A stretch of DNA of 64,000 nucleotides from Dendrophyllia cribrosa (lineage: Eukaryota > Cnidaria > Anthozoa > Scleractinia > Dendrophylliidae): NCBI GenBank assembly GCA_024195265.1, contig JAJLRJ010000010.1, positions 7,100,581 to 7,164,580 on the forward strand. The letters are read 5' to 3'. Shown here piece by piece: positions 1 through 28,130 of this stretch; position 1 is the stretch's first letter, and the number at the start of each line of letters is the position of its first letter. The notes below the pieces were generated by a model that was given only the letters and a program-made list of their open reading frames with translations, did not search any database and was not told the origin of the DNA. A program made the position numbers and the translations under genes.

Positions 1-335
1 TTTATTTCTTTCTTTCCAAATCAAAACTTTTATTGGAAAGAAATAAATAAAAATGAATTTGTTTTTTTATTTCTTTCTTTCCAATAAAAGTTTTGATTTG
101 GAAAAGATTTTTCTCCAAATTAATTTCATTTAGGGGAAGATCTCCTTTCAAAATAAATTTCATTTTTTTTTTTTTCTAACTAAAATCTATTTTTTCATGA
201 AGTTTTATGTTGAAGATAGGCTTATCTCTCTTTTTTCCCCTCTGTTTATTTCCTATAATTTAATCAACTCTTTTCAGGAAATAAATATATAAAATCTTAT
301 TTTATTTTTTTATTTCATTTTTATATTTATCTAAA

Positions 336-917
336 ATGGCGAAACAAACAGACAAGCATTTTACAATTTCAGATGGGAAAAAAACCAAAACATTCACCTC
401 TATCAATTCTGCTGCTAAAGAATTTAACATTTCAAATTGTGCAATTACAAATGCTCTGAAAAAAGGAAACACATCTATCACCAGAAGATCGGATAAGAAA
501 AAATTCTTTCTCGGAGAACCAAAACCAAAATCAAAACAATCAGATACAGAATTTTCTTCACTTCCAATGGATGAGGAATGGTTTGATAAATTCAAGATAG
601 TAGTTTCAAACATGGATGAGTTTGGTAAAGGGATTGTTAATATATTATTTATGGATGAGGACATCGCATTTGATTGGAAAAAAAGAGAAATTTTATATAA
701 TGAGGAAACTGTTTCATTTTTCAAGATTATCTCCGTTATCTGTAAAGTAGCATTTCCGATTAACAGAGATTATTGTTTGGAAGAACAGAATAAAAAATTA
801 TCTGTTGGGGAAAAAAATGCAATTGACTTGAAACGATTGAATTTCATTTCCAAAATGAGGAAAAATGAAAGAACCTTTCAAGTGGATTTGTTCAATAAAA
901 TCAAGAAATATAAATGA
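336..917 (+). CDS. Small HTH (NUMOD1-like) protein encoded inside the left TIR
   Basis: 193-residue protein, start at the AAAATG common to genes of this element. Residues about 20 to 60 have the pattern of a NUMOD1-like helix-turn-helix: a run with SINSAAKEFNIS, then a second helix, then RRSDKKKFF, which closely matches the N-terminus of the protein encoded at 4801 to 5283. The rest is lysine-rich and unrecognised. An identical copy is encoded at 15717 to 16298 because the gene lies wholly in the inverted repeat. Known: NUMOD1 modules bind DNA next to homing nuclease domains; no nuclease motif is seen here. Inference: a DNA-binding protein acting on the element's own ends (replication origin, integration or expression control). 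Function unproven. Confidence 0.8.
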   Translation: MAKQTDKHFTISDGKKTKTFTSINSAAKEFNISNCAITNALKKGNTSITRRSDKKKFFLGEPKPKSKQSDTEFSSLPMDEEWFDKFKIVVSNMDEFGKGIVNILFMDEDIAFDWKKREILYNEETVSFFKIISVICKVAFPINRDYCLEEQNKKLSVGEKNAIDLKRLNFISKMRKNERTFQVDLFNKIKKYK

Positions 918-1022
918 AATATATTTCACAGCTGAAAATCAATGACTAATAGCTAAAGTTTTCAAAAAAACTTTTTCTCCTGAAAAAGTTTTTTATTTTA
1001 AATTTGCTTCATCAACCACTTT
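918..1022. other. TIR spacer between HTH gene and polymerase 3' end
   Basis: About 100 bp of AT-rich TIR sequence. It contains an inverted repeat (AAAACTTTTTCTCC with GAGAAAAAGTTTT in mirror sense around 965 to 993) lying between two convergent stop codons, so it could serve as a 3' end or terminator for both genes. No known signal is clear. Confidence 0.35.
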
Positions 1023-4000
1023 TTATCCTTTTGGAGGAGAAGACAATCTCCAATGACCAATAGCCAAAGTGTTCACTCCATCATCCATTACAACTCTCTT
1101 ATCATCATAAGCACTCAAAGCCACTTTCAAAATCTGCTCAGTGAAAATCTCATGCAGATGTGATCGGAGAGAAACATTTTTCATTGGAGGAAATTTTTCA
1201 CCATGAAGAACACGCATAAAATCTTCATGTGAAATCTTATTCTTGACAACATTCTTTTTTGTTCCCTTTGCTTTCTTGATTCCTTTTCCCTCATCCATCT
1301 TTATGGAATAACATTTTGCTCTCAATCCAGCAAATTCACGAATGATTTTTCCTCCAGCTTCATCTTTAAACATTCCTAAAATTTTCTTGTTTTTTCCAAC
1401 AGGAAAGCCATTTTTCACAGCGAAATGATCTTTCGGATATCCAGATGTGTCAAACCATTTCTCAACATCTCCAGCAGTATCAGCAAAGAAATCATCCGTC
1501 TCAATCTCCAGAATCAAAGAATCTGTATCAGAATAAAGAACTTTCACATTCTCCCACTTTTTTTTCACATATCCATAATGAAATTTGAACATATGAATTT
1601 TGGAGAGATCAAGAATTGCTGCTCCAACAAAGATTGGTTTATTCAAAACGACTTTTGTTTTTCTCATATGAACAGCTGCAACTGTATCTCCAAACTTAGC
1701 CGCGTGTTTGAAGTTGATTTTTTTCACCAAGTTTGCTTTTTTCTTCCTATCATTCACCAGTTTCATGTCAATTCTGTTCCTAACATTTTCCATGGTTTTC
1801 CCGTAAACAGCATTGCTTGCTAGTTTGAAAAGATCTTTCTCAAAATCATTTTTGGCTGCTGTTCTCAGTTTCGTATTCCATTCAATGAAAGGTTTCATGA
1901 AAGCTTCATTTCTGAATCCAATTCCTCTCCAAATCTTTTTCAGTTTCATTCCTAGGGAAAGAAAGAGTCTCAAACTCCTTCCATCCAAAACCATTTTTTC
2001 CTTATCCATCAAGTTGGGAATTAACTTTTTGAATCCCCCAACTTCCAGGAGTTCAGGCGCTAAAGGAAAATCATTGTGGAAATCATGATTTTCTTTTGGA
2101 TATTCCAAGTTAACTTCCAAAACACATCCATAACCTTTCTCATCAATAATCTTCTCCCATTTCTTCAAAACCCCTTCACTCAACCATTCAAATCCTCCCA
2201 CAGGGAGTGGTTGCACCATCGCAGTTGGATAAAGGGAATTTGCATCGAGATAAACGATGAACTTTGATGGTTGGGAAGGATCAAAATCTTCCATGAATTT
2301 GTTGTTTGCTTGAGAAAATCTGTGAAAGACTGTGGAAACTCCTCCACGAATTTGCCTTTCAAAAAACCGAAACATTTCCACATCTCCTTCACAAATCAAT
2401 TCCAACTCAACTCCTGTCATCTTCAACATAGCATCCCAAAAGAAAGAGGGGGCAGTCAAAAACCATGCGGGGTCCAACAGATAGTTTTCCAACAAAACTT
2501 TCCTAAAATTTTCCACCACATCTGTCAGGAGAAAAACATTCGTCTTCAAATAGAGATCATGATATTCTCCCATATTCAACATCCCAAATTTTCTCCAGAC
2601 ATTTTCAGCATGAGCAAAATCTTCATCTGAAATTCCTTCTCCAGACAACTGGGAGAAAAAAACATCTTTCCCAGGAAGTTCATAATTAAATTTCTCAAAT
2701 GAATCCATGAATTCATAAGGAAAAACTCCTTTTCTGGAAAGCAAATCAACTTCATCATCATTTGGGAAAAATCTTTTCAAACAATGTAAATCATCTTTTC
2801 CCAAATTTCCAACAAGATTTGCCAAAGAAGAATTCATAAATTTCAGGGAGTCAACAAAGCGAATCTCATGTTTCAAATCATGTTTTTTTCCCTCTTCATC
2901 TTCAAATGTTCCCCAAACAATTTTCAGGGAGAAAGAAACATATTTTTCGTCATTGTTTGGGATTGCATCAATCTCCCCAAATTCATTTCCCATGTTTTTG
3001 ATGAAAAGATGGGAATCATATCCATCTAAATTGTGAATGAAGACTGGAGTGAAATCTGGCACTTTCGCTTGCAAATTACAATATTCATGAGCAGCTCCGC
3101 GAAATTCCCCAGTCAGATGACAATGATCAGCAACTTTTTTTTCCTCAATCTTTTTCCTGCAAAGCCAACAAATATCAGTTTTCTGGAATGCTTCCTTTTC
3201 TCCTTTCTTCCAAAGAATTCTCTTCCAATTTTTTCTCAGCATTGGTCTTCTCACATCATTCAGAATCCATTTCACCTGATCAACAAGTTTCACCAGAAAC
3301 TCTTTCCCAACATCATCTCCTTCTTTTCCACGAAAGAAAACTGGGGAGAAATCAACCCCAACTTGGCTCACAGGAAGAAAACAAAAGCTGCAGGGAACAT
3401 GATGCTGAATTTGCTCTGTTTTTTCCCCAATTTTCTTTTCTGTTTTCTCCAAAATCGACTCAAAATCAGCGTAGATGACAAAGGGAACGGTTGTTGCGCA
3501 TTGAACTTTCTTGAATTTCATAATTGATTTTTCTGGAGGGAGAACAGCTTTCACTCCATCATCCATACAAAATTCTTGATGAACGTCAAATGTTTTTTTA
3601 GAGTTAAATGAATTGAGACAACCATCACAAACATGCCTTTGGTTTTTATTTTTTGAATCTTCTCCAAACCACAATCGATTCAAATTCTTCACTAAAGCGA
3701 AATGTTCATTTTCATCGCTTTTCAGTTTGAAAAGAATCACATGATTCTCTTTCTTTTCCCTTGCTTTTTTCAAAGTCACGATTTGTTTCCCATCAACAAT
3801 ACCCAAGACATTCACAGAAATGTTATTTTGTCTTTCAAATCTGTCAATGTCTCTCCATGAAATGGGGAATGAAATTCCTTCCCAATTGAATTCTTCGCAT
3901 TGTTTTCTCAACAAAGGAGTGATTCTTTGTGGGTTTTTCTCCACAGGATTTTTCCATCTTCCAATGCACCACTTGAAGCACTCATCATCATTTTCATTTT

Positions 4001-4763: not shown

Positions 4764-4800
4764 TTTGAATGAAAAATAAAAAAAAATGTTTTCATTCAAA
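4764..4800. promoter_or_regulatory. 37-bp divergent intergenic region (polymerase / second HTH gene)
   Basis: Very short AT-rich gap between the divergent start codons at 4763 (minus) and 4801 (plus). It is itself almost palindromic: CATTTTGAATGAA on one side and TTCATTCAAAATG on the other, so both genes share the same start context in mirror image. Any promoter for the pair must be this gap or lie inside the coding regions. Confidence 0.5.
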
Positions 4801-5283
4801 ATGAAGTTTTCAATCCAGGAAGAAGGAAAAGAAAAGCAGATTTTTTTCACATTCAAAGAAGCATCAGAAAAAACTGGTATTCCAAATTCCACCATTTGGA
4901 GGTTCATCAAAAACAATTCAGAAAACAAAAAGTTCACCAGAAAATCAGACAAAAAAGTTTTCTTCATTCAGGAAGAAATAACAGATAAACCTTTTCTCCA
5001 AGTTGATGGAGAAGATATTTTTGATTGTGATGAAATAGAAAAGTTTGGAATTTCAAACACAATTTTTTTCAATCAAATTCTCAGGAAGAAAAACCATTTC
5101 CTTGATTCAGAGGAGATCTCTCACCACATCACATGGAAATCTCCTGAATTTGATTTCCTTATTGATAGATTGAGGGAAAATCAAAGGGATGCAAAAATCA
5201 TTCAAAAGGCAAAAAAGAAATCATGGCCAAAATCAACCATAAATCACGCTTTAGTTTTTGTAAATGATAAAGACCATATTTAA
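4801..5283 (+). CDS. Second small HTH (NUMOD1-like) protein
   Basis: 160 residues from the AAAATG at 4801 (an in-frame ATG at 4786 lacks this context). The N-terminal 55 residues parallel the TIR-encoded protein: a helix-turn-helix segment with FKEASEKTGIPNSTIWR, followed by FTRKSDKKVFF, almost the same as RRSDKKKFF in the TIR protein. The C-terminal half is basic and differs. Inference: the two are paralogues, one copied into the TIRs and one single-copy beside the polymerase; either may regulate or mark DNA ends. No catalytic motif is seen. Confidence 0.75.
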   Translation: MKFSIQEEGKEKQIFFTFKEASEKTGIPNSTIWRFIKNNSENKKFTRKSDKKVFFIQEEITDKPFLQVDGEDIFDCDEIEKFGISNTIFFNQILRKKNHFLDSEEISHHITWKSPEFDFLIDRLRENQRDAKIIQKAKKKSWPKSTINHALVFVNDKDHI

Positions 5284-8603: not shown

Positions 8604-8610
8604 TTTATTA

Positions 8611-8706
8611 TATTCAATATGATATTCAATATGATATTCAATATGATATTCAATATGATATTCAATATGATATTCAATATGATATTCAATATGATATTCA
8701 ATATGA
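8611..8706. repeat. Eight tandem 12-bp repeats in the divergent promoter region
   Basis: Exactly eight copies of TATTCAATATGA fill the gap between the divergent ATPase (start 8603) and the PPxY-protein gene (start 8723). The unit holds a near-palindrome (ATATTCAATAT / ATATTGAATAT). Inference: a repeated operator or promoter/enhancer element controlling left and right gene blocks, or a simple replication-slippage microsatellite. Confidence 0.9.
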
Positions 8707-8722
8707 TATTTTTAGATTTAAA

Positions 8723-10932: not shown

Positions 10933-10946
10933 AATAATCTATTAAA

Positions 10947-12233
10947 ATGGCTTTTCGATCGAATGAATATCTCCAAAGAAATGAACTTGTAAGATTCCAG
11001 TTGGATGATGTTATCAGAGCCCCAGCAAATGGGCAACATCAAACAAAAAATGGTTATAAATTCACCATCAATGACAGATCAGCGTTTTATGATTGGCATA
11101 ACGCTTATTTTGAAGTGCAATTTCAACTCCAGAAATTAGCAAATGGTGCTGGATATGCTGCTGCTGATAGGATAACAGTCATAAATGGCTCACATTCCCT
11201 GATAAAACACATGACAATCAGATCTGCAGGGAAGATTGTTTACGAACCTGACAATCTGCATAAAGTTACTTTTGTTAAAAATCTGTTGGAATACTCAGAT
11301 GACTTCAGCAGATCAGTAGCAAAGAACAGTTTCTGGTATTTGGATACGGATGGAACAACTGCTGATACGAATACAGGATTTGAAGCGAGACGACTACAAA
11401 CTCAAGCAAACGAAGACGATGGAAGTGAAGGTGCTAAAAATGTTAATTGCATTATCCCCCTGAATCGTTTCTCCTTTTTCGAGGAACTGGAAGGCAGGAT
11501 GTTGGTCCCAATGCAGTTGCAATTCGAAATTAATCTTCAACAGGATGGTGAATTGATTCATAAGGCTGCTGCTGCTGCTGCTGGAAGAGTTGTTATCAAC
11601 AGATTTTTGCTTTGGGTGCCAAGACTGTCTCCCAAAGATTCTCTTTATGATAAATTTATCAGTTCATTCCTGAAAGAAACACAATGGAAGTATCTGAGGG
11701 AGACATATGATCAATCAGCTCCCGCAACATCATCAGGATTCTTCCAGATTTCAGCGAGCATTGACAATGTAAGGCATATTTTTGTCTGGCTGAAAAGAAC
11801 AGCTCCACCTAATAATCACCCTGAAGAAGACTCTCCATATTTAATGGATACTTTCAAGCTGAATGAAGCAGATGATGACTCATCTTTATCAACTTGCAGA
11901 TTGGAGTATGGAAATGGAGTGTTTTATCCTGAAACTGACTATGACACAGAATCAAAAGTCAGAATCTTCAATGATGTCATGGCTTATGCAATGAGGAAAA
12001 ATGATTTCAACACTGGTACTCAGTTGAATTTGGCTAACTTTCAATCACTTTATGGTCTCATTTATTTCGACTTGTCTTACCAAGCTGAAAAACCAACAAG
12101 AGATCCCAAGCAGTTGATATTTCGATATACGCTGAATGCTAATGCGACTGAGAACTTCAATGTGCATGCAGTGGTTCTTTATGAGGAAACAGCTAAGATT
12201 AATAAAGTTGGTAATGAGCTGGTTATTGCTTAA
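10947..12233 (+). CDS. Probable major capsid protein (double jelly-roll)
   Basis: 428 residues, AAAATG start at 10947. Long beta-rich chain with no transmembrane region; the opening (RSNEYLQRNELVRFQLDD) and length fit the hexon-like major capsid proteins of Polintons and adintoviruses. The frame is open from start to stop. It sits between the penton-like and pVI-like genes, as expected for the structural block. The double jelly-roll call comes from context, size and composition rather than a strict motif; a fold prediction would confirm or refute it. Confidence 0.75.
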   Translation: MAFRSNEYLQRNELVRFQLDDVIRAPANGQHQTKNGYKFTINDRSAFYDWHNAYFEVQFQLQKLANGAGYAAADRITVINGSHSLIKHMTIRSAGKIVYEPDNLHKVTFVKNLLEYSDDFSRSVAKNSFWYLDTDGTTADTNTGFEARRLQTQANEDDGSEGAKNVNCIIPLNRFSFFEELEGRMLVPMQLQFEINLQQDGELIHKAAAAAAGRVVINRFLLWVPRLSPKDSLYDKFISSFLKETQWKYLRETYDQSAPATSSGFFQISASIDNVRHIFVWLKRTAPPNNHPEEDSPYLMDTFKLNEADDDSSLSTCRLEYGNGVFYPETDYDTESKVRIFNDVMAYAMRKNDFNTGTQLNLANFQSLYGLIYFDLSYQAEKPTRDPKQLIFRYTLNANATENFNVHAVVLYEETAKINKVGNELVIA

Positions 12234-12264
12234 AGCGGAGTGAAAACATATGTTATCATTAAAA

Positions 12265-13065
12265 ATGACAACATATCACCCATATAAAATAAATTTGTCT
12301 AAAGGACAAAAAGAAAAGCTTGGAAGAGCATTCAGAACAAACACTCCAGTCACCCTGAGATTGGGTAGTAATCAAACAAGTGGAAATGATGAACTGATGC
12401 TGACAACTAATCAAATTAAAAGAATCACAAAAGCAAAATCTCTGGGAAAAGGAGTTGAGATAAAGATATCAAAAACACAAATTAGAAAAGTAATGAAACA
12501 AGGTGGAAGTCTATTTTCTGCTATTGTTCCTTTGGCTAAAACATTGATACCCACCCTGGGTAAAACACTTGGGTTGTCAGCACTGGCTGGTTTAGCGAGT
12601 GAAGGAGCAAGTCAAGTCGTCAAAGCAATAAGTGGAAAAGGTGGTGGTCAGGTGGGTGGATTTCTCATCCCCCAAAATAAAATTCAGAAACTGATTGATA
12701 ATAAACATTTGTTGACAAATAAACAGAAACAGGACATTTTGGTTGCCCTGCAATCAGGAGGACAGTTGGTGATGAAACCATCCGTAAAACAGTCTGGTGG
12801 ATTGTTAGGAAGTGTGTTGGCATCCATTGGAATCCCATTAGCACTTGACATGGTAAAGAATTTGTTTGGGAAAGGTGCTCCTAGAGTTGGCCGACCAAAT
12901 GGAAAAGGAGCTCCAAGATTGGGAGCGTATCCTCCACCATTTATTGGAAGTTGGAGACGAAACCCTGTTGGGATGGGGAAAAAAAAATCAAAAAAAGGCA
13001 AAGGACTTCTGCTGGGGACGAACAGCCCATTCAACAACATCCCAATTCTCGGGGCAATATTGTGA
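12265..13065 (+). CDS. pVI-like glycine-rich minor capsid protein (frame 0 of a possible frameshift pair)
   Basis: 266 residues from the AAAATG at 12265 (an ATG at 12250 is in frame but out of context). The N-terminal 80 residues are basic; then two Gly/Ala-rich hydrophobic amphipathic stretches (about 90 to 135 and 175 to 205), repeated GKGAPR motifs (about 210 to 225), a Lys block and a hydrophobic tail. Composition resembles the membrane-lytic cement protein pVI of adenoviruses. The protease frame begins inside its 3' end in the -1 frame, with an in-phase A-run (12990 to 12996) as a possible slip site. In adenovirus a pVI peptide is the protease cofactor, so a fused arrangement would be notable. 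Homology to pVI is inferred. Confidence 0.7.
   Translation: MTTYHPYKINLSKGQKEKLGRAFRTNTPVTLRLGSNQTSGNDELMLTTNQIKRITKAKSLGKGVEIKISKTQIRKVMKQGGSLFSAIVPLAKTLIPTLGKTLGLSALAGLASEGASQVVKAISGKGGGQVGGFLIPQNKIQKLIDNKHLLTNKQKQDILVALQSGGQLVMKPSVKQSGGLLGSVLASIGIPLALDMVKNLFGKGAPRVGRPNGKGAPRLGAYPPPFIGSWRRNPVGMGKKKSKKGKGLLLGTNSPFNNIPILGAIL
12990..12996 (+). promoter_or_regulatory. Possible -1 frameshift site (AAAAAAA) from pVI-like gene into protease
   Basis: In the pVI-like frame the codons read TCA AAA AAA GGC, giving an in-phase A AAA AAA heptamer. A -1 slip here enters the protease frame directly. A second A AAA AAA lies just upstream (12981 to 12987). Downstream structure is weak: only a 4-bp GCTG/CAGC stem (13011 to 13014 with 13023 to 13026) was found. 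Support comes mainly from the frame relation and the lack of an AAAATG for the protease. Confidence 0.45.
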
Positions 13066-13496
13066 GGCCTAAATTTGTAATTAAACCGCTGTCAAATATT
13101 GATCTGTTGAAGTGGATTGAATATCTGAGGATTCCTAATTTCAAAGGCATCTTTGCGAGAGATCAATTCATGCCACAAAAACACAGCCCCTGCATTATCA
13201 ATCTTGATTCACTTGAAAATGCAGGAACTCATTGGGTTTGTTGCGCTCCGGGGAAAAAATTCACATGGTATTTTGACTCTTTTGGAATGGGATTTCCAAA
13301 AGAATTCAAAAGTTCCAAACCAGTGATTTGGAACAGCAGTCAGTATCAAAACATAAACAGTGTTCTTTGCGGGTATTATTGCCTTTATTTCCTCCATCAA
13401 TGGTCGCAGGGGAAAGATTTCTATGATATTCTCAAACCTCTCAGTTTGACTGATACAATTCAAAATGAAAGATTCATAAAAGAATATTTCGATTGA
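12996..13496 (+). CDS. Adenain-like cysteine protease (expressed by -1 frameshift?)
   Basis: Maturation protease of the adenovirus/Polinton (C5, Ulp1-like) type, which cleaves capsid precursors. Catalytic residues in order: His in GTHWVC, Asp in YFDSFGM, a Gln in SSQYQ, and the nucleophile Cys in LCGYYCLYFL. The conserved domain opens with IKPLSNIDLLKW. There is no ATG before the domain: the first Met in frame is about 30 residues inside it, and no AAAATG context exists. The frame is -1 to the pVI-like gene and overlaps its last 70 bp, so translation by frameshift is the simplest reading; a spliced mRNA or a GUG start at the overlap are alternatives. The start given is the first codon after the proposed slip. 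It ends 2 bp before the zinc-ribbon gene. Confidence 0.85.
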   Translation, partial: RQRTSAGDEQPIQQHPNSRGNIVRPKFVIKPLSNIDLLKWIEYLRIPNFKGIFARDQFMPQKHSPCIINLDSLENAGTHWVCCAPGKKFTWYFDSFGMGFPKEFKSSKPVIWNSSQYQNINSVLCGYYCLYFLHQWSQGKDFYDILKPLSLTDTIQNERFIKEYFD

Positions 13497-13498
13497 AA

Positions 13499-13657
13499 AT
13501 GAAGTCATATTGTGTGAAGGAGAAAAAACAAACTGAATGTGTTGAGCCATCTGGAACCATGACCGCAAAAAATGGAAGAAAGATGTGGTTTTGCCATTGC
13601 GCTTCCTGTGGAATCAAAAAGACAAGATTTGTGAAGGCAAAGCCCTCGGGAAACTGA
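13499..13657 (+). CDS. Small zinc-ribbon protein (frame 0 of zinc-ribbon/PLA2 frameshift)
   Basis: 52 residues from an AAAATG two bases after the protease stop. It has a Cys near each end of the ribbon: Cys5, Cys14, then FCHCASCG with three further Cys (about 32 to 37), typical of short zinc-ribbon proteins in Polintons. The stop TGA (13655) immediately follows an in-phase GGGAAAC heptamer. A -1 slip carries the chain straight into the PLA2 frame, so this can be read either as a free small protein or as the N-terminal domain of a PLA2 fusion. Confidence 0.8.
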   Translation: MKSYCVKEKKQTECVEPSGTMTAKNGRKMWFCHCASCGIKKTRFVKAKPSGN

Positions 13658-13680
13658 GTCTGCCCTCACAAGGTGGGGGC
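13648..13680 (+). promoter_or_regulatory. -1 ribosomal frameshift signal, zinc-ribbon to PLA2
   Basis: Slippery heptamer GGGAAAC (13648 to 13654) in the correct X XXY YYZ phase of the zinc-ribbon frame, directly followed by that frame's stop TGA. A 7-nt spacer (13655 to 13661) precedes an 8-bp hairpin: GCCCTCAC (13662 to 13669), loop AAG, GTGGGGGC (13673 to 13680), with one G-U pair. GGGAAAC is an established slip site (for example simian retrovirus gag-pro). The -1 frame is exactly that of the PLA2 protein, which has no AAAATG of its own. Confidence 0.78.
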
Positions 13681-14313
13681 TTTGGTGAATTAGCATTGAC
13701 TGGCGTTGCTCATGCTCTTCCCTGGCTCGGGAAAAAAACAGTTGAAATGGGTCGTTATGGAGCCAGTGAATTGTTGCGAAATAAGAACACTCAGAAAAAA
13801 GCATTGGATTTTGCTTTAGATAAGATGAAACCATTTCTTGCAAAAACCTCTTCCGATATGCTGAATCAACTATCCACTGCGATTAGACCAAACAGAAAAT
13901 ATAAGACAGATCGAGCTGATTTGGATGGAAGAGGATTGGATATTCATAACTTGATTGGGAAACTACCAAAACCAAAGAAAGGTTTCACTCTTCCCGGACA
14001 TAACTTCACTGGCCCGTATAACCCTTTGAAAAAGCAAGTCAGATTTGATGATACTGGAAAGATTCTTGAAATTATGCAACAACCCACAGGAAAAACAGAC
14101 GCAGTTGCTATGCAGCATGATGTGGATTATTCAGTTTGCGCAAAACAATCAAACCCACATCAATGTAAAAATAAAGCAGACAGGAAAATGGTTGCCGCTT
14201 TGGATTCCATTCCCTGGAAAGAAAGACAGTGGGGTCATGCTTTGGCGAGAAATACCATTGATGTAAAACAAAAACTTGGTTTGGGTGCCCAAAAAAACGG
14301 GAAAAGATTTTGA
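13654..14313 (+). CDS. Parvovirus-like phospholipase A2 domain protein
   Basis: 220 codons counted from the proposed slip to the stop at 14313. The PLA2 signature is clear: calcium-loop LPGHNFTGPYNPL, then the catalytic helix DAVAMQHDVDY with the His-Asp pair, then an ADRKM helix supplying the next Asp, as in parvovirus VP1 unique regions. The N-terminal 60 residues are Gly-rich and amphipathic. Known role of vPLA2: breach of endosomal membrane during entry. The first ATG in frame is at 13747 and lacks the element's start context, so the main route is probably fusion to the zinc ribbon by frameshift; a shorter AUG-started product with the intact domain remains possible. Its 3' end carries a second slip site into integrase. 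Confidence 0.88.
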   Translation: MSLPSQGGGFGELALTGVAHALPWLGKKTVEMGRYGASELLRNKNTQKKALDFALDKMKPFLAKTSSDMLNQLSTAIRPNRKYKTDRADLDGRGLDIHNLIGKLPKPKKGFTLPGHNFTGPYNPLKKQVRFDDTGKILEIMQQPTGKTDAVAMQHDVDYSVCAKQSNPHQCKNKADRKMVAALDSIPWKERQWGHALARNTIDVKQKLGLGAQKNGKRF

Positions 14314-14356
14314 GTGAAGGCTGGACTCAAAATCTAGCAAATGAACTTCACCAGCC
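14292..14356 (+). promoter_or_regulatory. -1 frameshift signal with pseudoknot, PLA2 to integrase
   Basis: Heptamer AAAAAAC (14292 to 14298) in correct phase of the PLA2 frame. After a 7-nt spacer (14299 to 14305) comes a perfect 10-bp stem, GATTTTGAGT (14306 to 14315) with ACTCAAAATC (14325 to 14334), loop of 9 nt. The loop's GGCTGG (14319 to 14324) is perfectly complementary to CCAGCC at 14351 to 14356, giving an H-type pseudoknot. The PLA2 stop codon lies inside stem 1. AAAAAAC is the MMTV gag-pro slip site. The -1 frame is that of the integrase. Confidence 0.85.
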
Positions 14357-15254
14357 AATCAGGAGAAGATTTCCAAAGAGAAGAGTAATTGCATATGGTG
14401 TTGACAACATTTGGGCGGCTGATCTGGTTGAGATGGGGAAATATTCGAAGTGGAATAAAGGAATAAGATATCTCCTGATGGTGATCGATGTTTTCTCAAA
14501 GTTCGGTTGGATTCGCTCCCTGAAAGATAAGAGAGGACAAACAGTAGCCGATGCTTTCCAATCCATATTCAGGGAGAGAAAACCAAAGATGCTTTGGACT
14601 GACAAAGGAAGTGAATTTTTCAATGGAATTATGAAGGATCTCCTGAATAAGAATGGGATAAAATTGTATACAACAGAGAATGAAGAAAAGTCATCTGTGG
14701 TTGAACGTTGGAATAGGACTATGAAGGAGAAACTCTTCCGGATGTTTTCTGCTAACAATAATACAGTGTTTTTTGACAAACTAGATGAGTTAGTGGATCA
14801 ATATAATCACCATTTTCATTCGAGCATTCGGATGACCCCAGCGCAGGCTAGCGAACGGAAAAATGAGAAAAAGGTTTTCGCTAATCTTTTCGGAGATATG
14901 ATTTATGCAAAACACAACCCAGCAAAATTCAAGATTGGTGACAGGGTTAGAATATCAAAATACAAACGAAAGATATTCGACAAAGGTTTCACCCCGAACT
15001 GGACAGAGGAGATATTTGTTATCGATGAGGTTTTAAACACAAATCCTATAACGTATAGGTTAGTCGATTTGTTGGGAGAAAAAATAACTGGATCATTTTA
15101 TGAAGCAGAACTCCAAAGGACAACACAAAGCGTATTTCGCATTGAAAATGTTATTCACCTCGATCAAAAGAAAAAGGAAGCTTTGGTTAAATGGAAAGGA
15201 TATCCTGATAAATTCAATTCCTGGGTTCCACTGAGTGATATGGAAAATCTCTGA
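14298..15254 (+). CDS. Polinton integrase (DDE, with chromodomain)
   Basis: Retroviral-type integrase that inserts the element into host DNA. 318 residues counted from the proposed slip codon. Catalytic triad: Asp in WAADLVEM, Asp in LWTDKGSEF, Glu in SSVVERWNR, spaced as D,D(35)E. An SH3-like segment (KIGDRVRISKYKRK) follows, then a C-terminal chromodomain (ENVIHLDQKKKEALVKWKG to NSWVPLSDM), usual in Polinton integrases. The upstream HHCC finger seen in some relatives is absent. The first Met in frame lies after the first catalytic Asp, so no AUG-started product could be active. That makes frameshift (or splicing, or a non-AUG start) necessary. Frame is -1 to PLA2. Confidence 0.93.
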   Translation, partial: REKILSEGWTQNLANELHQPIRRRFPKRRVIAYGVDNIWAADLVEMGKYSKWNKGIRYLLMVIDVFSKFGWIRSLKDKRGQTVADAFQSIFRERKPKMLWTDKGSEFFNGIMKDLLNKNGIKLYTTENEEKSSVVERWNRTMKEKLFRMFSANNNTVFFDKLDELVDQYNHHFHSSIRMTPAQASERKNEKKVFANLFGDMIYAKHNPAKFKIGDRVRISKYKRKIFDKGFTPNWTEEIFVIDEVLNTNPITYRLVDLLGEKITGSFYEAELQRTTQSVFRIENVIHLDQKKKEALVKWKGYPDKFNSWVPLSDMENL

Positions 15255-15590: not shown

Positions 15591-16632
15591 TCTTCTCCTC
15601 CAAAAGGATAAAAAGTGGTTGATGAAGCAAATTTAAAATAAAAAACTTTTTCAGGAGAAAAAGTTTTTTTGAAAACTTTAGCTATTAGTCATTGATTTTC
15701 AGCTGTGAAATATATTTCATTTATATTTCTTGATTTTATTGAACAAATCCACTTGAAAGGTTCTTTCATTTTTCCTCATTTTGGAAATGAAATTCAATCG
15801 TTTCAAGTCAATTGCATTTTTTTCCCCAACAGATAATTTTTTATTCTGTTCTTCCAAACAATAATCTCTGTTAATCGGAAATGCTACTTTACAGATAACG
15901 GAGATAATCTTGAAAAATGAAACAGTTTCCTCATTATATAAAATTTCTCTTTTTTTCCAATCAAATGCGATGTCCTCATCCATAAATAATATATTAACAA
16001 TCCCTTTACCAAACTCATCCATGTTTGAAACTACTATCTTGAATTTATCAAACCATTCCTCATCCATTGGAAGTGAAGAAAATTCTGTATCTGATTGTTT
16101 TGATTTTGGTTTTGGTTCTCCGAGAAAGAATTTTTTCTTATCCGATCTTCTGGTGATAGATGTGTTTCCTTTTTTCAGAGCATTTGTAATTGCACAATTT
16201 GAAATGTTAAATTCTTTAGCAGCAGAATTGATAGAGGTGAATGTTTTGGTTTTTTTCCCATCTGAAATTGTAAAATGCTTGTCTGTTTGTTTCGCCATTT
16301 TAGATAAATATAAAAATGAAATAAAAAAATAAAATAAGATTTTATATATTTATTTCCTGAAAAGAGTTGATTAAATTATAGGAAATAAACAGAGGGGAAA
16401 AAAGAGAGATAAGCCTATCTTCAACATAAAACTTCATGAAAAAATAGATTTTAGTTAGAAAAAAAAAAAATGAAATTTATTTTGAAAGGAGATCTTCCCC
16501 TAAATGAAATTAATTTGGAGAAAAATCTTTTCCAAATCAAAACTTTTATTGGAAAGAAAGAAATAAAAAAACAAATTCATTTTTATTTCTTTCTTTCCAA
16601 TAAAAGTTTTGATTTGGAAAGAAAGAAATAAA
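15591..16632. repeat. Right terminal inverted repeat of the Polinton
   Basis: Reverse complement of 1 to 1043. The true repeat must extend outward past 16632, since its left partner leaves the window. Beyond it, 16660 to 16674 and 16689 to 16703 form another palindrome (GATAAAATTTATCCC with GGGATAAATTTTATC), so the terminus carries stacked hairpins. The element probably ends within about 20 bp after this. Confidence 0.95.
15717..16298 (-). CDS. Small HTH (NUMOD1-like) protein encoded inside the right TIR
   Basis: Second, identical copy of the 193-residue protein described at 336 to 917, transcribed toward the element's interior. Identity over the entire gene shows the two repeats are kept the same or are very young. 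Two copies double the gene dose and place a gene for a DNA-binding protein within the terminal repeat that is a natural candidate for its target. Confidence 0.8.
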   Translation of the reverse strand: MAKQTDKHFTISDGKKTKTFTSINSAAKEFNISNCAITNALKKGNTSITRRSDKKKFFLGEPKPKSKQSDTEFSSLPMDEEWFDKFKIVVSNMDEFGKGIVNILFMDEDIAFDWKKREILYNEETVSFFKIISVICKVAFPINRDYCLEEQNKKLSVGEKNAIDLKRLNFISKMRKNERTFQVDLFNKIKKYK

Positions 16633-16725
16633 AATGATTTGATTCCCAAATTTTCTGGAGATAAAATTTATCCCCATAAAGTTTTCTTGGGATAAATTTT
16701 ATCTTTCTTTATTCCCTACTCTGTA

Positions 16726-21251: not shown

Positions 21252-21852
21252 GTTTAGGTAGTTAATACTTACAGAATTATCCTCTTTTCATAAGGTAACT
21301 AACATGTCAGGTTTGCATTATAGAATAAATTGTTTTTTGGAAAAAATTTTTTGTCCCAAATTAAACGTGTCCAAATTTGAGGGTTTTATTATTGTATTCA
21401 AGATGTGAACACTGTCCGTCGGAAAATGTTATACACTAAGTTAAAAGTAAAAAGGTTGTACGTATTTTTAATAAGTTCGCTGTAACAAATAATTTTGTTA
21501 ATAAAATTAAATCTGGCTAAGTTTGTGTGTTACCTACATGGGGTCAGCAGAGAGGTGGGGAGGAGGGGGGTACTCCCTTATATAAGCTATATAGGTATGT
21601 GCGGCTGCAAAGGGTATGGTTTTTGAGCCGTTTTGGTCAGAAATAGGGTATCGATTTCGACCATTTTGGTCAGAAATAGGGTATGGTTTTAAAAGAAGCT
21701 ACTTTATTATTGTTATTTATCTGTCTGCGCGAGTTCGGCATGATCGGACGTGTTTACTGAGAGGAGCCTGATCTCCCTTCATTTTTCTAATTTCCTTGGT
21801 ATTTTCGACCGTCAGTTACATCTTGGAGCGATGCAGTATATCGATAACTTCA

Positions 21853-22719
21853 ATGGAATCGAAAAGTCGTAAAAACAAAAGGGGAGCTAGAGGTTCGATG
21901 GAAGAAGAAACCAACGCTGCGAAACGTTCCAATATGGCGGATAGTTGCGAGGAGTCAGAGTTGGACGCCTCTTCACCCGAGCCAAGCCTAACAGACATCA
22001 AGGAGATGCTTGTTGACATACAAACTACAGTTACAACGATACTCAAGGAATATCAACAACTCAAACAGGAAATAAAGGAGCTGAAAGCCGCCCTCAACGC
22101 CAACCAAAGGGAAACAGAGAAACTCAAAACACAGCTAACAAAGGCCGAGAAAGCAAACGACACCTTGCAAAACGAGCTAGAACAAGCAAGACACAAGCTT
22201 TATGGACAGATAGAAGAGACAAACAGACTTGACGAAAAATACGATGAGCTGGAACAATATTCGCGCAAAAATTCTCTGGAAATTGTTAGAGTCCCTGAAA
22301 GCGCGTATACATCCACGGAGAAAGTTGTGATCCGCATAGGAAAAGCTGTGAACGTCAATATCAACCCAGAAAGCATAGAAAATCTCATAAGCTGAAACGA
22401 AAGAACAGCAGTCCTATAATCGTAAAATTCTTAAGCCACAAGGCGAAGGCGCGATTTTACAAAGCGAGAACCAAGCTAAAGGGCCTAAAAGTGTGTGACA
22501 TCTTTCCAAGTTACGCCAACACTTCTCTTCAAGAACAGCGTATATACATAAACGAGAATCTGACGGAATACAGGCGGAAGTTGTTTTGGAAAGCAAATCA
22601 GAAGAAAAAGAATAACATGATTATCAGTGCTTGAACAATCGATGGTAAACTTTTCGTAAAAACATCGCCAGACAGAGCACCGATTAGAATATACGGTGAA
22701 GAGGACTTAGAAGATCTTT
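21853..22719 (+). pseudogene. LINE ORF1 (coiled-coil nucleic-acid binding protein), broken
   Basis: Open from 21853 to a stop at 22393; the rest continues in another frame to about 22719, so there is at least one frameshift and an additional in-frame stop. The first part has a Ser/Glu-rich N-terminus, a long heptad coiled coil (about residues 50 to 130), then ELEQYSRKNSLEI, the start of the RRM-like core usual in L1/Tx1 ORF1 proteins. It would coat LINE RNA in the active parent. Confidence 0.75.
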
Positions 22720-22917
22720 GAAAATTAATTGATCACTGAACAAATGAAGGGATAACGGACTGGATTACTGAGATAAGGAACTCTTTAAATAGGTTTGTTT
22801 TTAAATTTGGTGTCGGTTAATTTTGTTTTGATTTGCTTTTTTGTTGCTTATTGTTATTATGTATAGGAGAGCGTAAACATAATTTATCATCAAGGAACTA
22901 CTCTTAAATGCATAATG

Positions 22918-25900
22918 CAAATGTTCCGTGATTTCTTTAAATGTAAGAGGTCTAAGAGATACTTCTAAAAGAAGGAGCATTTTTGTGTACTTAAAAGATC
23001 AGAAGGCCGATTTTTGTTTTCTTCAGGAAACTTTTTCCAAACCAAGCGATGAAGCCATTTGGAGAAATGAATGGGGAGGTCCAATTTTCTTTTCTCACGG
23101 CACCTGTCACAGTAAAGGTGTTTGTATTTTGATCAACCGAGCGGTAAAGGAAAAGGTGACATACACATCCAGTGACACCTCTGGCAGAATAATTCTAATT
23201 AACATAACGTACAATGGTTTGAAATTATCATTTTGCAATATATACGCACCAAACGACCACACACAACAACTGGGCTTTATTCAAGAACTGAATTGCCTTT
23301 TAATTGACAAAGCCGAAATTGCAACTCTAATAGTAGGGGGTGATTGGAATTGTACCTTGGAAAAGAAAGACAAAAAAGGTGGTGTCCCCTGGAGGCCCAC
23401 AGCGTATAGGAATTTGGTTAAAATTACAATGGATAGTCTTGATCTAGTTGATATTCAAAGAACACGCCATCCGAAACTCAATGCGTTCTCCTATGTGTCA
23501 AAGGCATTAGGTGTTAAATCAAGGATATACTTTTTTTCTAGTTGCTAAACACCTAACAAAATTTGTTAAAAAAGTGGATATCCAAACCTCAATAGCGCCT
23601 GATCACAATTCGATATTTTTGTTAGAATCGCATACGTCAAAGGAAACTCACATTCTTATTGGCCAACGAAGCGAGGGTATTTGTATAGGTAATCATACGG
23701 TTTCGAGTTCAATTTGGGATTAATTTGCACGAGTGAGTTTTTCAAAAAGCTCAAATTGCACTCGCCGTTACTTATTAATAATTATACATGAAAAAATTTG
23801 CATTCATTTTTGTTTGGAAATTTTTTTTTTTTGCAAAATTTTTTTTTTGGAAATTTGGGAAAGAAAGTTTTTTTTTTCGATTTGTAATTTGCACTGGTGT
23901 TACACTTTTTGCACCGGTGTTACACTTGAACTGCACTGCTCTTAGCCAATCAGAATGGAATTGCATACCTGAGAAGTGATATTGCATGGCATCTTCGAAG
24001 GACGATGTTTCTGTACTTTCTTTGTATAGTATGTATACTTTCTTTTAAAATAGTGAGTTTTGATTTGAAGCGAAAAATACAGACGTTATATTCACAAGTG
24101 ATAAATTTGTCAAAAGTGAATTTCTGTTCTTCCCAATTTTATAACCAAAATGTGAACTTTGTAGAGAGTGAAGAAGCCATTCACACTGCAGTCCTACAAG
24201 AAGGCGAGCGAGCTATTGGCAAAAACCGATATTTCATGCTTAGAAAAAAACATGTCTAAATAAAACAAAGAAGTTTATGAAAACAAGAATACTGTACTGA
24301 GCTATAAATAAAAAGTAATTTCTTCTTACCGAAACGGCCGTCTGGTTGCTTTAAAAATATTAAAACAAGATGCTGTCCGAAGAAGAATTGAACTTTCAGC
24401 GAACTTTCTTATTTCAAAACCAAAACTTGTATCGCAACTCCTGTCTTGTATATAGTATCGGCAAAGAAAACCGGTGTAAAAAAGTATTAGAGATACAAAG
24501 GCAATAATGATAGTAATCGTATCAATAACAAATTCTCGATTGTGATTGGTCATCCGCGCGCCTATTTCTCACGTAACTGGCGCGCGGTCACGTGGGTGTC
24601 CAATTACAGCTATCCAATTACAACTTTTTGTAATTGGATAGCTGTAATTGGACACCTACGTTGCGCGCGCGTCAATCAGTTGCATTTGTATGGGCTCGTT
24701 TTTGCTGTTTTTCTTCCACTTTCAAACTGACAGAAAATATCCAAGACGTTTTTAGTACAAAAGAGTCGACATAGCTTCTTAATCTCGAATTTGGTTATTG
24801 ATGCGATTAATTAGTAATTGAACTTCGTGTCGTACAATTCAGGGGTAATCGTGCTCGTAATTTCAAATCGTCCTCGCGCTTCGCGCTCGGCCGATTTGAA
24901 ATTACTCGCCCGATTACTTCCTGAATTGTACTCCACTCAGTCCAATTACTATTACTAATAATATTAGTAGTCTGCGAAAATAAGGTGAGAATAAAAATAT
25001 TCCTGTTCGAGCGGAGATACTCCGAACCCTTTCGTCGTCAACTTATGGTCCTTATGAATAGAAGTGATCAACCGCGATAAGATAAGCATAATTTTTTTTA
25101 CGGCCGGATGTTTAATAACTAATCCATCAGTACATCACAAATTTGCCTTCTTTGTTGTCCAAAGGTTTTTCGTTTACTTGTCGCTGTGATGAAATTCCTA
25201 TTTGCCCTGTTTGCCGGTCGGCGATAACAAACTTCCGAACTGTCAAAGCTATAATTTCCACCACAAACATTCGCAGTTGGGCTCCACAGCCGTTCACATT
25301 ATGTACTTTAGTGTACAAACAGCATCAATTTCAGTCATAAACTGTCTTTTTCTGACAAACAAAACTAAAATTTGTCGCTACCACAAGTAGGTTTTCTCCT
25401 GACCGCGCGTGATTCACCCGGCGTGATTTCGGAATCAGTCTTGATTTCTATTCGCTAGTTCTTGACAGTTGGCTTTGAAATGGCTTTCTCGCTGGAAACG
25501 TTGTTTTTTTTTTTGCCAGACTCGTGAATTCCACGTTAAATTTCACTTGAAAAACCGATATCGCCCTCATCGCGATATCTGTTTTTCGCGTGAAATTTAA
25601 CGTGGAATTCACGAGTCAGACAATTAATTTTTCTATATTATCGTTGCCAGACGAGCACCCTCGTGGACCGGGATTTTGGAAATTCAATAATACTCTATTA
25701 AACGACGAGGAATACACAACCAAAATTCGAGAATAATATCCTGAACTTTGCAAAAAGTACTCTTATGTAAAAGACCAACAGCTATTTTGGGAACTGATGA
25801 AAATGGAAATAAGAACCATGACTATTTTATTTGCTAAAGGAAAGGCACAGATAGCTAGAAAGCGCGAGACAGTGATTAAAGAACAATTAGATGAGCTGGA

Positions 25901-28130
25901 TAAAAAAATCTGCAATATATAGCCAGAATCTTGATAATATTGATCCTGTCCTTAAACAATATGATGACCTTAAAAAGGAACTCCAACAACACTATGACAA
26001 TAAAGGTAAAGCTGCGATCTTCCGGTCTAAATGCCGATGGGTCGAAGAAGGAGAAAAGCCACAAAGTACTTCTTTAACTTAGAGAAAAGGAATTCTGACA
26101 ATCGGAAAACCATAAATGAAATTAATTGGAAAATGAGGAAACAACCACAGATGAAAAGCAAATCTTGTCGATGATTAAAACGTATTATAATGACTTGTAT
26201 AATTCCAAAACAACTGAGACACAAGATAACTTGGAAACATTTAGCGAAAACCTGGAGATCCCTAAACTTGAGGACGAGGAAAGGGATGAACTGGACGGCC
26301 CCTTGACATATAAAGAATGCAAAAAATCTTTGGAATCGTTTCAAAATGGTAAATCACCAGGAGTGGACGGACTAACCGTAGAATTCCAGCGGAATTCTAT
26401 AAGCACTTTTTTGATTTAATAGGATTAGATCTTTTAGCTAGCCTGAGTAAAGCCTATGAACTTGGGAGGTTATCAATCCCCCATCGTCGGGGTATAATTA
26501 CTCTTTTACCCAAAGAAGAAGCTGAATTGCTGCTCTTACAAAACTGGCGACCCATTACTCTACTCAACGTAGATTACAAAATAGCATCAAAAGCCATAGC
26601 AATGAGAATCGAGCCGATGTTGCCGAAACTTGTGCACCCTGACTAAACTGGCTTTGTAAAAGGAAGGTATACAAACAAGGGTAAATAACATCCCAGGTAT
26701 ACTTATATCAGTTGATTTTAAAAAAGCCTTTGACTCGCTGGAATGGTCATGTATTCAGAGCACTCTTCAAAAATTCAACTTTGGTGATAGCATAAGAAAA
26801 TGGATCGAAGTCTTCTATACAGATATTGAAAGTGCAGCCTTGAACAACGGCTTCGCTACGGGCTGGTTTAAGCCTTCTAGAGGAGTCAAAGACATGGATG
26901 CCCACCCTCGCCTTTTCTGTTTATCTTGACCGCAGAAATTTTATCAAATAAAATAAGACAAAATCCGACCGTCAAGGGAATTCGTATTTTTGGCTCTGAG
27001 GTCAAACTAACTGTCAGTTTGCAGATGACACGAACTTATTCTGCGGTGATTTTGCATCGGTCGAATAAGCTATAGACACAGCGAACGTCTTTAGTAAATT
27101 CTCCGGATTAATGCTCAACGTAGAGAAAACAAAAGCCATCTGGCTGGGAAAATGGTCAAAAAATAGAACCAAACCGTTAGGGATGAAATGGGTGAATAGT
27201 CCAACAAAATTCCTAGGAATTTTTGTCTCTTATGATGAGAAAGGTAACAACCAGATGAACTTCAACCTGAAAGTGCAAAAATTACAAACGAATCTAGATA
27301 TGTGGAATTCGAGAGGGTTAACACTATATGGAAAGGTGCTAATAATTAAATCTTTGGGGCTATCTAAGTCAATACATTCAATTTCGAACACAAACGTTCC
27401 CAAGGAGATTTAACGGTAAAAGATAAAATGTTTCGTTTCCTTTAGAAAAATAAAAAGGACAAAATAAAGAGACTACAAGTCTTTATCAGGACATTTGCAA
27501 TGGAGGGTTACGGATGGTTGATATGGAACTAACAATAAGATCATTACGATTAGCATGGATTCAAAGACTTCTGTTTGGAAATAAAGGTAATTGGAAAAAA
27601 GTTCCGGACCACTTCTTTAAAAAACATTGTGACCTCAACTTTTTTCTCCGATGTAACTATGATACCAAATACCTTGGGCACATTCCAGAATTTTACAGAG
27701 ACATACTTATTGCTTTTGACGAAATTAAAACTTTGTATAACTACGATCAAGGAAATGACATTATCCTTTTCAACAATAAAGATATTTTAGTTGATGGAAA
27801 GCCTATATTTCTTAGGGAATGGTTTAATAAAGGTATTTATACGATCCAAGAGCTCTTGAATGAAAACGGTCAATATCTAACTTTCAACGAATTTCAGTCA
27901 AAATTTCATTGCAAAACAAATTTTCTCCAGTTTTATCAAATCTTGAGCGCAATCCCCGGTTCTTTGAAAGAAAAAGCGCGAACTCTAAGACAAAATCCGA
28001 TGCTTAACTACAGAGAAAATTGTACATCGTTATTACTGAACCAAAACACCCAAATTGATCTGGAAAAGTTTAAAGCAAGGGACTATTACCGTTGCCAAGA
28101 AACATCAATCACCCCCTACTGGACCTAAAA
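22918..28130 (+). pseudogene. LINE ORF2 (endonuclease and reverse transcriptase), broken
   Basis: Endonuclease motifs are seen at 22,928 to 23,660: SLNVRGLRD, FLQETF, IYAPND, GGDWNC. After the inserted repeats, the linker resumes near 25,645 and contains the CRWVEEGEKP motif, then RT blocks (SPGVDGLTVEF; FKKAFDSLEW; a decayed FADDTN at about 27,020), then the C-terminal region to 28,130. Many stops and shifts. No functional product expected. Confidence 0.8.
23665..25640. repeat. About 2 kb insertion of palindromic repeats inside the LINE
   Basis: Contains three separate long palindromes: 24579 to 24671 (GTCCAATTACAGC mirrored by GCTGTAATTGGAC), 24832 to 24931 (GTACAATTCAGG mirrored by CCTGAATTGTAC) and 25519 to 25617 (GACTCGTGAATTCCACG mirrored by CGTGGAATTCACGAGTC). 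Each can form a cruciform. Exact insertion borders and target duplications are not resolved. Confidence 0.65.

Follow-up and report, generated by a model that had tools for sequence, protein, structure and literature searches.

The stretch of 64,000 nucleotides analysed in this study (the window) begins inside a Polinton. Its terminal inverted repeats, paired between positions 1-1043 (plus strand, the part of the left repeat within the window) and 15591-16633 (minus strand), share 99.8% identity with one mismatch and one gap, and both extend past the paired 1043 bp by about 100 nt or more; in the 100 nt that were fetched to the left of the window the repeat is still paired, and the element ends, where a 6-bp target-site duplication would be expected, lie beyond. 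Long terminal inverted repeats, here of at least 1043 bp, are a hallmark of Polinton/Maverick elements, and the core genes of this group are likewise present: a type B DNA polymerase (PF03175) and an A32-type packaging ATPase (PF04665) on the minus strand of the element, and an rve integrase (PF00665). The adenovirus-type protease (PF00770) is represented by a weak match below the cut-off (16.8 versus 21.3 bits), and three among the relatives listed carry the PF00770 label. Considered for capsid proteins, the stretch 10938-12233 gave no Pfam match. Each terminal repeat holds a near-perfect 41-bp hairpin (13-53 with 64-104 and 16529-16569 with 16580-16620) and a small ORF (285-917 and 15717-16349, respectively); these ORFs and a third one beside the polymerase (4780-5283) showed slight similarity to DNA-binding domains (NUMOD1, HTH), with every match below the cut-off. 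At 8606-8710 lie 8.8 copies of a 12-bp unit, into which both the minus-strand ATPase and a plus-strand ORF read. Farther along the window, ORFs at 21772-28128 resemble, by eye, parts of a LINE-type retrotransposon.

On the plus strand, three genes follow each other in successive frames, each -1 relative to the preceding one. The first is a DUF5679 zinc-ribbon ORF (13499-13657; PF18930, E 3.1e-8), which runs from an AUG at 13499 to a TGA at 13655-13657. The second, a PLA2 of the Phospholip_A2_4 family (PF08398, E 1.1e-9), occupies a frame that is open from stop to stop at 13546-14313 and ends with a TGA at 14311-14313. The third frame (stop to stop, 14262-15254) encodes an integrase with a chromodomain (PF00665, E 2.4e-11; PF00385, E 3.3e-7). 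The DUF5679 frame is the zero frame of a slip site at the first of the two junctions (J2), where a -1 slip is the putative entry into the PLA2 frame, and another slip site lies at the PLA2-integrase junction (J3).

At J3, the integrase frame is the -1 frame of PLA2, which terminates with QKNGKRF before its stop, and A AAA AAC at 14292-14298 (plus strand) is in the slip phase of PLA2; both points had been made in an earlier note on this DNA, and this heptamer is the sole one in phase within the PLA2/integrase overlap (14262-14313). The perfect stem that the note had placed behind the slip site is also present, but it comprises 11 bp (14305-14315 with 14325-14335) instead of 10, and with this one further pair the spacer measures 6 nt (14299-14304) instead of 7. 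The proposed 6-bp pairing of loop and downstream sequence, 14319-14324 with 14351-14356, was found as claimed, and this stem 2 adjoins stem 1. Thus, J3 combines an in-phase X XXY YYZ heptamer, a spacer within the about 5-9 nt expected of a -1 signal and a stable stem and pseudoknot. The hairpin of stem 1 alone reaches -12.7 kcal/mol (z -3.5; equalled by 0 of 200 shuffles). The two strands of the 64 kb together hold 1068 canonical heptamers, among which J3 has the best pseudoknot stacking score (-31.2; next-best unrelated site -24.6), and its pseudoknot was matched by 0 of 3000 synonymous shuffles (stem 1 by 4 of 3000). A nested-only fold of 14299-14358 is ordinary (z -1.2; 27/200 shuffles as good), and that of 14299-14365 favours another structure (-14.5 kcal/mol); the case for the pseudoknot is therefore made by the stacking score together with covariation. 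The observation of a frameshift signal at J3 was confirmed, and the signal is stronger than first noted.

J2 was absent from the earlier note. The DUF5679 frame terminates TCG GGA AAC TGA, so that an in-phase G GGA AAC (13648-13654, plus strand) stands directly before the in-frame stop, and a slip by -1 leads into the PLA2 frame. After a spacer of 7 nt follows an 8-bp hairpin with the loop AAG (13662-13680), which gives J2, too, the in-phase heptamer, spacer and stable stem of a -1 signal. None of the other 1068 canonical heptamers of the 64 kb, both strands included, is followed by as good a simple stem as this hairpin (-13.7 kcal/mol, z -2.4, 5/200 shuffles as good), and 21 of 3000 synonymous shuffles equalled it. 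No notable pseudoknot was found at J2 (2029/3000 synonymous shuffles as good). In some copies (L071, L096, L101 and others) the J2 slip site is doubled at the equivalents of 13640-13654, reading GGGAAACTCGGGAAAC, with both sites in the same phase. Taken together, these findings support two tandem -1 signals that would link zinc ribbon to PLA2 and PLA2 to integrase by putative slipping.

Further copies of the element were sought in the genome assembly (627 Mb, 22 contigs). A DNA search with 14200-14450 gave 610 candidates, of which 40 were scored, and yielded 39 near copies; since this query itself spanned J3, their constancy at J3 is biased. The integrase protein P0020, which comes from another source, gave 2861 candidates and, with 126 scored, 90 copies; its match begins behind the J3 signal, which makes it the fairer test. 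The 126 scored places comprise 31 that are the window or had already been fetched, the 90 copies, and 5 that were left out, namely two of three equal matches in a 9.8-kb array as well as C19:37421031, C19:40177796 and C2:35281484. Three equal-score integrase matches on contig C1 of the assembly (G000), at 37489969, 37499777 and 37509583, are about 9.8 kb apart and resemble a tandem array. There is one duplicate among the 90 copies (L063 repeats L049), and one copy is common to both sets, the union of which amounts to 128 other copies. Stem pairs were counted in 41 distinct haplotypes from the 87 copies with an intact heptamer for J3, and in 25 distinct sequences from 87 copies for J2 (L065, L138 and L146 missing); as the copies, all from one genome, are interrelated, such counts are not independent events.

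One of the two outcomes that the earlier note had named as refuting its proposal was that close relatives would lack any conserved slip site and structure. In fact, a canonical heptamer stands at J3 in 125 of the 128 copies, and the stems covary. Among the 90 copies picked with P0020 it is present in 87 (82 AAAAAAC, 5 TTTAAAC), the three misses being GAAAAAC, CAAAAAC and AAAAAAA, while the bases preceding the heptamer vary widely. The query-biased near copies have heptamer and stem 1 unchanged in 39/39 and stem 2 in 38/39, and net indels at J3 are absent in 36/39. The PLA2 motif could be placed in 80 of the 90 copies, where its frame relation to the integrase is -1 in 77, in frame in 2 and +1 in 1 (PLA2 was unplaceable by motif in the other 10), and the zero frame upstream of J3 is open for at least 100 codons in 83/90. 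Across the 41 haplotypes, 98% of the stem 1 cells are paired; shifting the 3' arm by 1-3 nt leaves no more than 54.5% paired. At 14307/14333, 27 haplotypes have A-U, 5 have G-U and 8 have G-C, and one lacks the pair; at 14313/14327, an A-C mismatch breaks the pair in 7. Stem 2 retains 5 or 6 pairs in 35 of the 41 haplotypes. In the remaining 6 it is weak in place and an alternative pairing lies 4 nt downstream, fully paired in 4 haplotypes (GAUUGG with CCAAUC) and with 5 of 6 pairs in 2. Third-position diversity at J3 is 0.075 in the stems, 0.30 in loops and spacer and 0.23 downstream; the stems are lower than the downstream part (p 0.006), a difference that is not significant over all sites (p 0.07).

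J2 is conserved in a similar way. Of the P0020-picked copies, 87/90 retain GGGAAAC with a stop behind it, down to 76% nucleotide identity. In the near copies, for which J2 lies outside the query, GGGAAAC was found in 38/39, the hairpin is unchanged in 37/39, and 37/39 have a net indel divisible by 3. Among the 25 distinct sequences, one pair of the stem alternates between U-G, C-G and G-C and another between A-U and C-G, which are compensatory changes; 94.5% of stem cells are paired, whereas sliding leaves no more than 58.5% paired. G-G occupies the innermost position in 5/25 sequences, and the stem of L072 is disrupted by an insert. The DUF5679 frame is open for at least 35 codons in 83/87 copies, and the frame entered at J2 is open as far as the J3 stop in 67/87. 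Short GC-rich inserts with the core CAGCGGAGC or GCTCCGCTG were seen in coding regions at 14 of 179 loci (L076, L121, L141, L147, L081, L117, L133 and others; none in the window), some of them directly before the J3 slip site or behind the J2 hairpin.

From the sequence evidence we put the probability at roughly 90% that one mRNA, through tandem -1 slips at J2 and J3, yields zinc ribbon, PLA2 and integrase products. Translation of this single mRNA would begin at the DUF5679 AUG at 13499. At G GGA AAC and its hairpin, a share of the ribosomes would shift back by one base and enter the PLA2 frame, thereby avoiding the stop in the next codon, and at A AAA AAC and its H-type pseudoknot a share of the ribosomes in the PLA2 frame would slip again into the integrase frame. 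We infer that the rates of slipping would leave the products in falling amounts, from zinc ribbon over zinc ribbon-PLA2 to zinc ribbon-PLA2-integrase. Parvovirus capsids contain PLA2 domains of this type. It is tempting to speculate that the PLA2 fusion brings the integrase into particles, where the protease of the element could free it.

Among the other explanations, slippage of RNA polymerase on the A-run fares best, although we regard it as improbable. One A would be added (or two dropped), so that some mRNAs would already join the frames. In the window there are seven consecutive As at J3, and the junction of ORF 12256-13065 with the protease (J1) has longer A-runs with a frame relation that varies between copies, as slippage would tolerate. 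On the other hand, many copies have only six As at J3 and five have TTTAAAC, J2 is GGGAAAC, and a conserved, covarying downstream structure would not be expected from slippage. J1 itself had been considered as a third -1 site. In the protease frame (12885-13496) the domain is not preceded by an AUG, and the overlap of this frame with ORF 12256-13065 contains two in-phase A AAA AAA. No structure was found behind these two A-runs (z +1.1 and +1.3). A motif search could read the junction in 33 of 40 diverged copies, of which 18 have a -1 relation, 8 have a +1 relation and 7 are in frame; among the near copies, 31/39 show a net indel of 0 or 3. J1 was thus not upheld as a -1 site, no structure and no conserved frame relation having been found. 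The length of the A-run at 12979-12996 differs between copies (L014-L052; L153-L192). The pattern at J1 would fit slippage on long A-runs or decay.

Reinitiation is a slightly less probable explanation: having terminated at the stop of PLA2, ribosomes would begin anew at the TTG that overlaps it (TTGA), or they would reach this TTG by scanning and start there. The earlier note had pointed out that the first Met of the integrase frame follows the first catalytic Asp, and this holds: Met is encoded at 14433 and the Asp of IWAAD at 14421, and the integrase frame of the window has no Met before 14433. Where the integrase would have to start, 90/90 copies have the codon TTG (one of them after a 3-nt offset), and the stop of the zero frame of the J3 heptamer overlaps it in 89/90. 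Also, in 108 integrase relatives called to start at the TTG place, the second residue is S in 87, R in 17, N in 3 and I in 1, residues that can each be encoded by a codon with A in first position. In eukaryotes, UUG initiates translation poorly. Moreover, TTGA lies within stem 1, which accounts for its conservation, whereas a restart leaves the heptamer, its TTTAAAC variant and stem 2 unexplained. Six integrase relatives have an upstream extension; the residue at the TTG place is L or I in 5 of them and M in the sixth. At the slip these six read K-K-R (4), K-K-P (1) or G-K-R (1), as the heptamer read in the -1 frame would give. An upstream ATG in the integrase frame is found in 19 of the 90 copies, and this counts against a strict need for slipping.

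The protein relatives come from other assemblies, some perhaps of the same species. Among the best 120 of 2076 PLA2 relatives, the LGLG motif is followed by K-N in 90 and by G-L-N in 22, with 8 off-pattern; the tails of these 112 match what A AAA AAC or U UUA AAC would encode. The residue before K-N has a codon ending in A in all 90, but the same applies to 86% of the linker residues, and K-N tails at the protein level should not be taken as proof of AAA AAC. In 79 of the same best 120 the terminal residue has codons ending only in T or C, therefore a TGA directly behind it could not overlap an ATG. Four relatives in which the parts are fused in frame (P0021, P0063, P0132 and P0162) were considered as support and set aside as weak, since stray indels among thousands of copies suffice to produce them; in-frame fusions in 15/113 protease matches by pattern share this weakness.

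A small intron that joins PLA2 to the integrase, or an upstream exon that supplies the integrase AUG, is very unlikely. GT...AG pairs of a suitable length class are present (the shortest 35, 41 and 44 nt) and AG directly follows TTG in many copies, but the conserved peptides of the PLA2 and integrase ends are just about 25 nt apart, and the heptamers and covarying stems would have no explanation. Decay of this copy, with a chance indel behind the frame offset and a signal that arose by accident, has hardly any probability left. The single-frame parts in P0021, P0063, P0132, P0162, L095 and L136 could be cited for it, but it is contradicted by the copy comparison (36/39 near copies without a net indel, the -1 relation in 77 of 80 further copies, covarying stems), and the 99.8% identity of the terminal repeats also speaks against it.

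In scans of the viral contig collection no DNA relatives outside this genome were found, and the phage collection gave no integrase match; the genome contig collection contained five distant Polintons with 32-40% integrase identity, and the plasmid collection 19 records with 26-27% identity, in which the annotated matches are IS3 transposases. The distant Polinton integrases L001-L003 start with AUG and carry 39-47 residues ahead of the region to which the beginning of our integrase aligns; in L004, 53 residues precede the equivalent of residue 17 of ours. The PLA2 fusion would thus take the position of the additional N-terminal residues found in Polinton integrases that start with AUG.

In the open-access literature we identified no report of frameshifting into a Polinton integrase or PLA2; the founding adintovirus paper lies outside this search. 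Slippery sequences were predicted in adintoviruses with KnotInFrame, and -1 fusions of penton and of hexon with adenain were proposed and called hypothetical (PMC11071296). These hints concern the same wider group of elements and include a fusion of hexon with the protease; in contrast to the case described here, the parts of that paper on frameshifting involve neither integrase nor PLA2, nor covariation (PMC11071296). In the parts of other papers that were consulted, frameshifts, where mentioned, concern other matters (PMC10120064; PMC12721341; PMC3671162; PMC12567637; PMC11089739).

The wider proposal, that a Polinton clade uses two retrovirus-style -1 frameshifts in tandem to make its integrase and that a zinc ribbon-PLA2-integrase polyprotein carries the enzyme into virions at low dose, has in our judgement about even odds. 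It bears on the formation of Polinton particles, since an integrase fused to a parvovirus-type PLA2 would be most sensible if both were packaged. Furthermore, it would account for the apparent absence of start codons in annotated integrases and PLA2s of this kind.

RNA viruses and retroelements provide the best-known cases of programmed -1 frameshifting. In bacteria, OrfAB of the IS3 family is likewise a DDE recombinase produced as a -1 fusion, although there the upstream part is the DNA-binding OrfA and a single slip is involved. The pseudoknot of the coronavirus IBV shares with J3 an 11-bp stem 1, a 6-bp stem 2, a short loop 1 and a 6-nt spacer, and the coronavirus-type U UUA AAC is found at J3 in 5/90 copies; unlike IBV, J3 mostly has A AAA AAC, its stem 1 is richer in A-U and no viral RNA polymerase is involved. 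The closest parallel was already drawn in the earlier note, which compared expression of the integrase with gag-pro-pol; the analogy is supported at the sequence level and would extend to a second -1 signal one gene upstream. In gag-pro-pol of the MMTV/MPMV/HTLV type, two successive -1 slips likewise occur on one mRNA with the integrase last, and the slip sequences of these retroviruses, A AAA AAC and G GGA AAC, are those of J3 and J2 and have a hairpin or pseudoknot downstream as well. The retroviral upstream partners are Gag and protease; here they are zinc ribbon and PLA2, and instead of a reverse transcriptase and Gag the element has a DNA polymerase B and upstream frames for DUF5679 and PLA2. 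In contrast to retroviruses, the element is a DNA transposon or virus, in which frameshifting is predicted. If this is true, the logic of gag-pro-pol was reached independently in a DNA virus, and tandem covarying signals in a eukaryotic DNA transposon or virus would mean that the same dosage control around an rve integrase arose in a very different genome.
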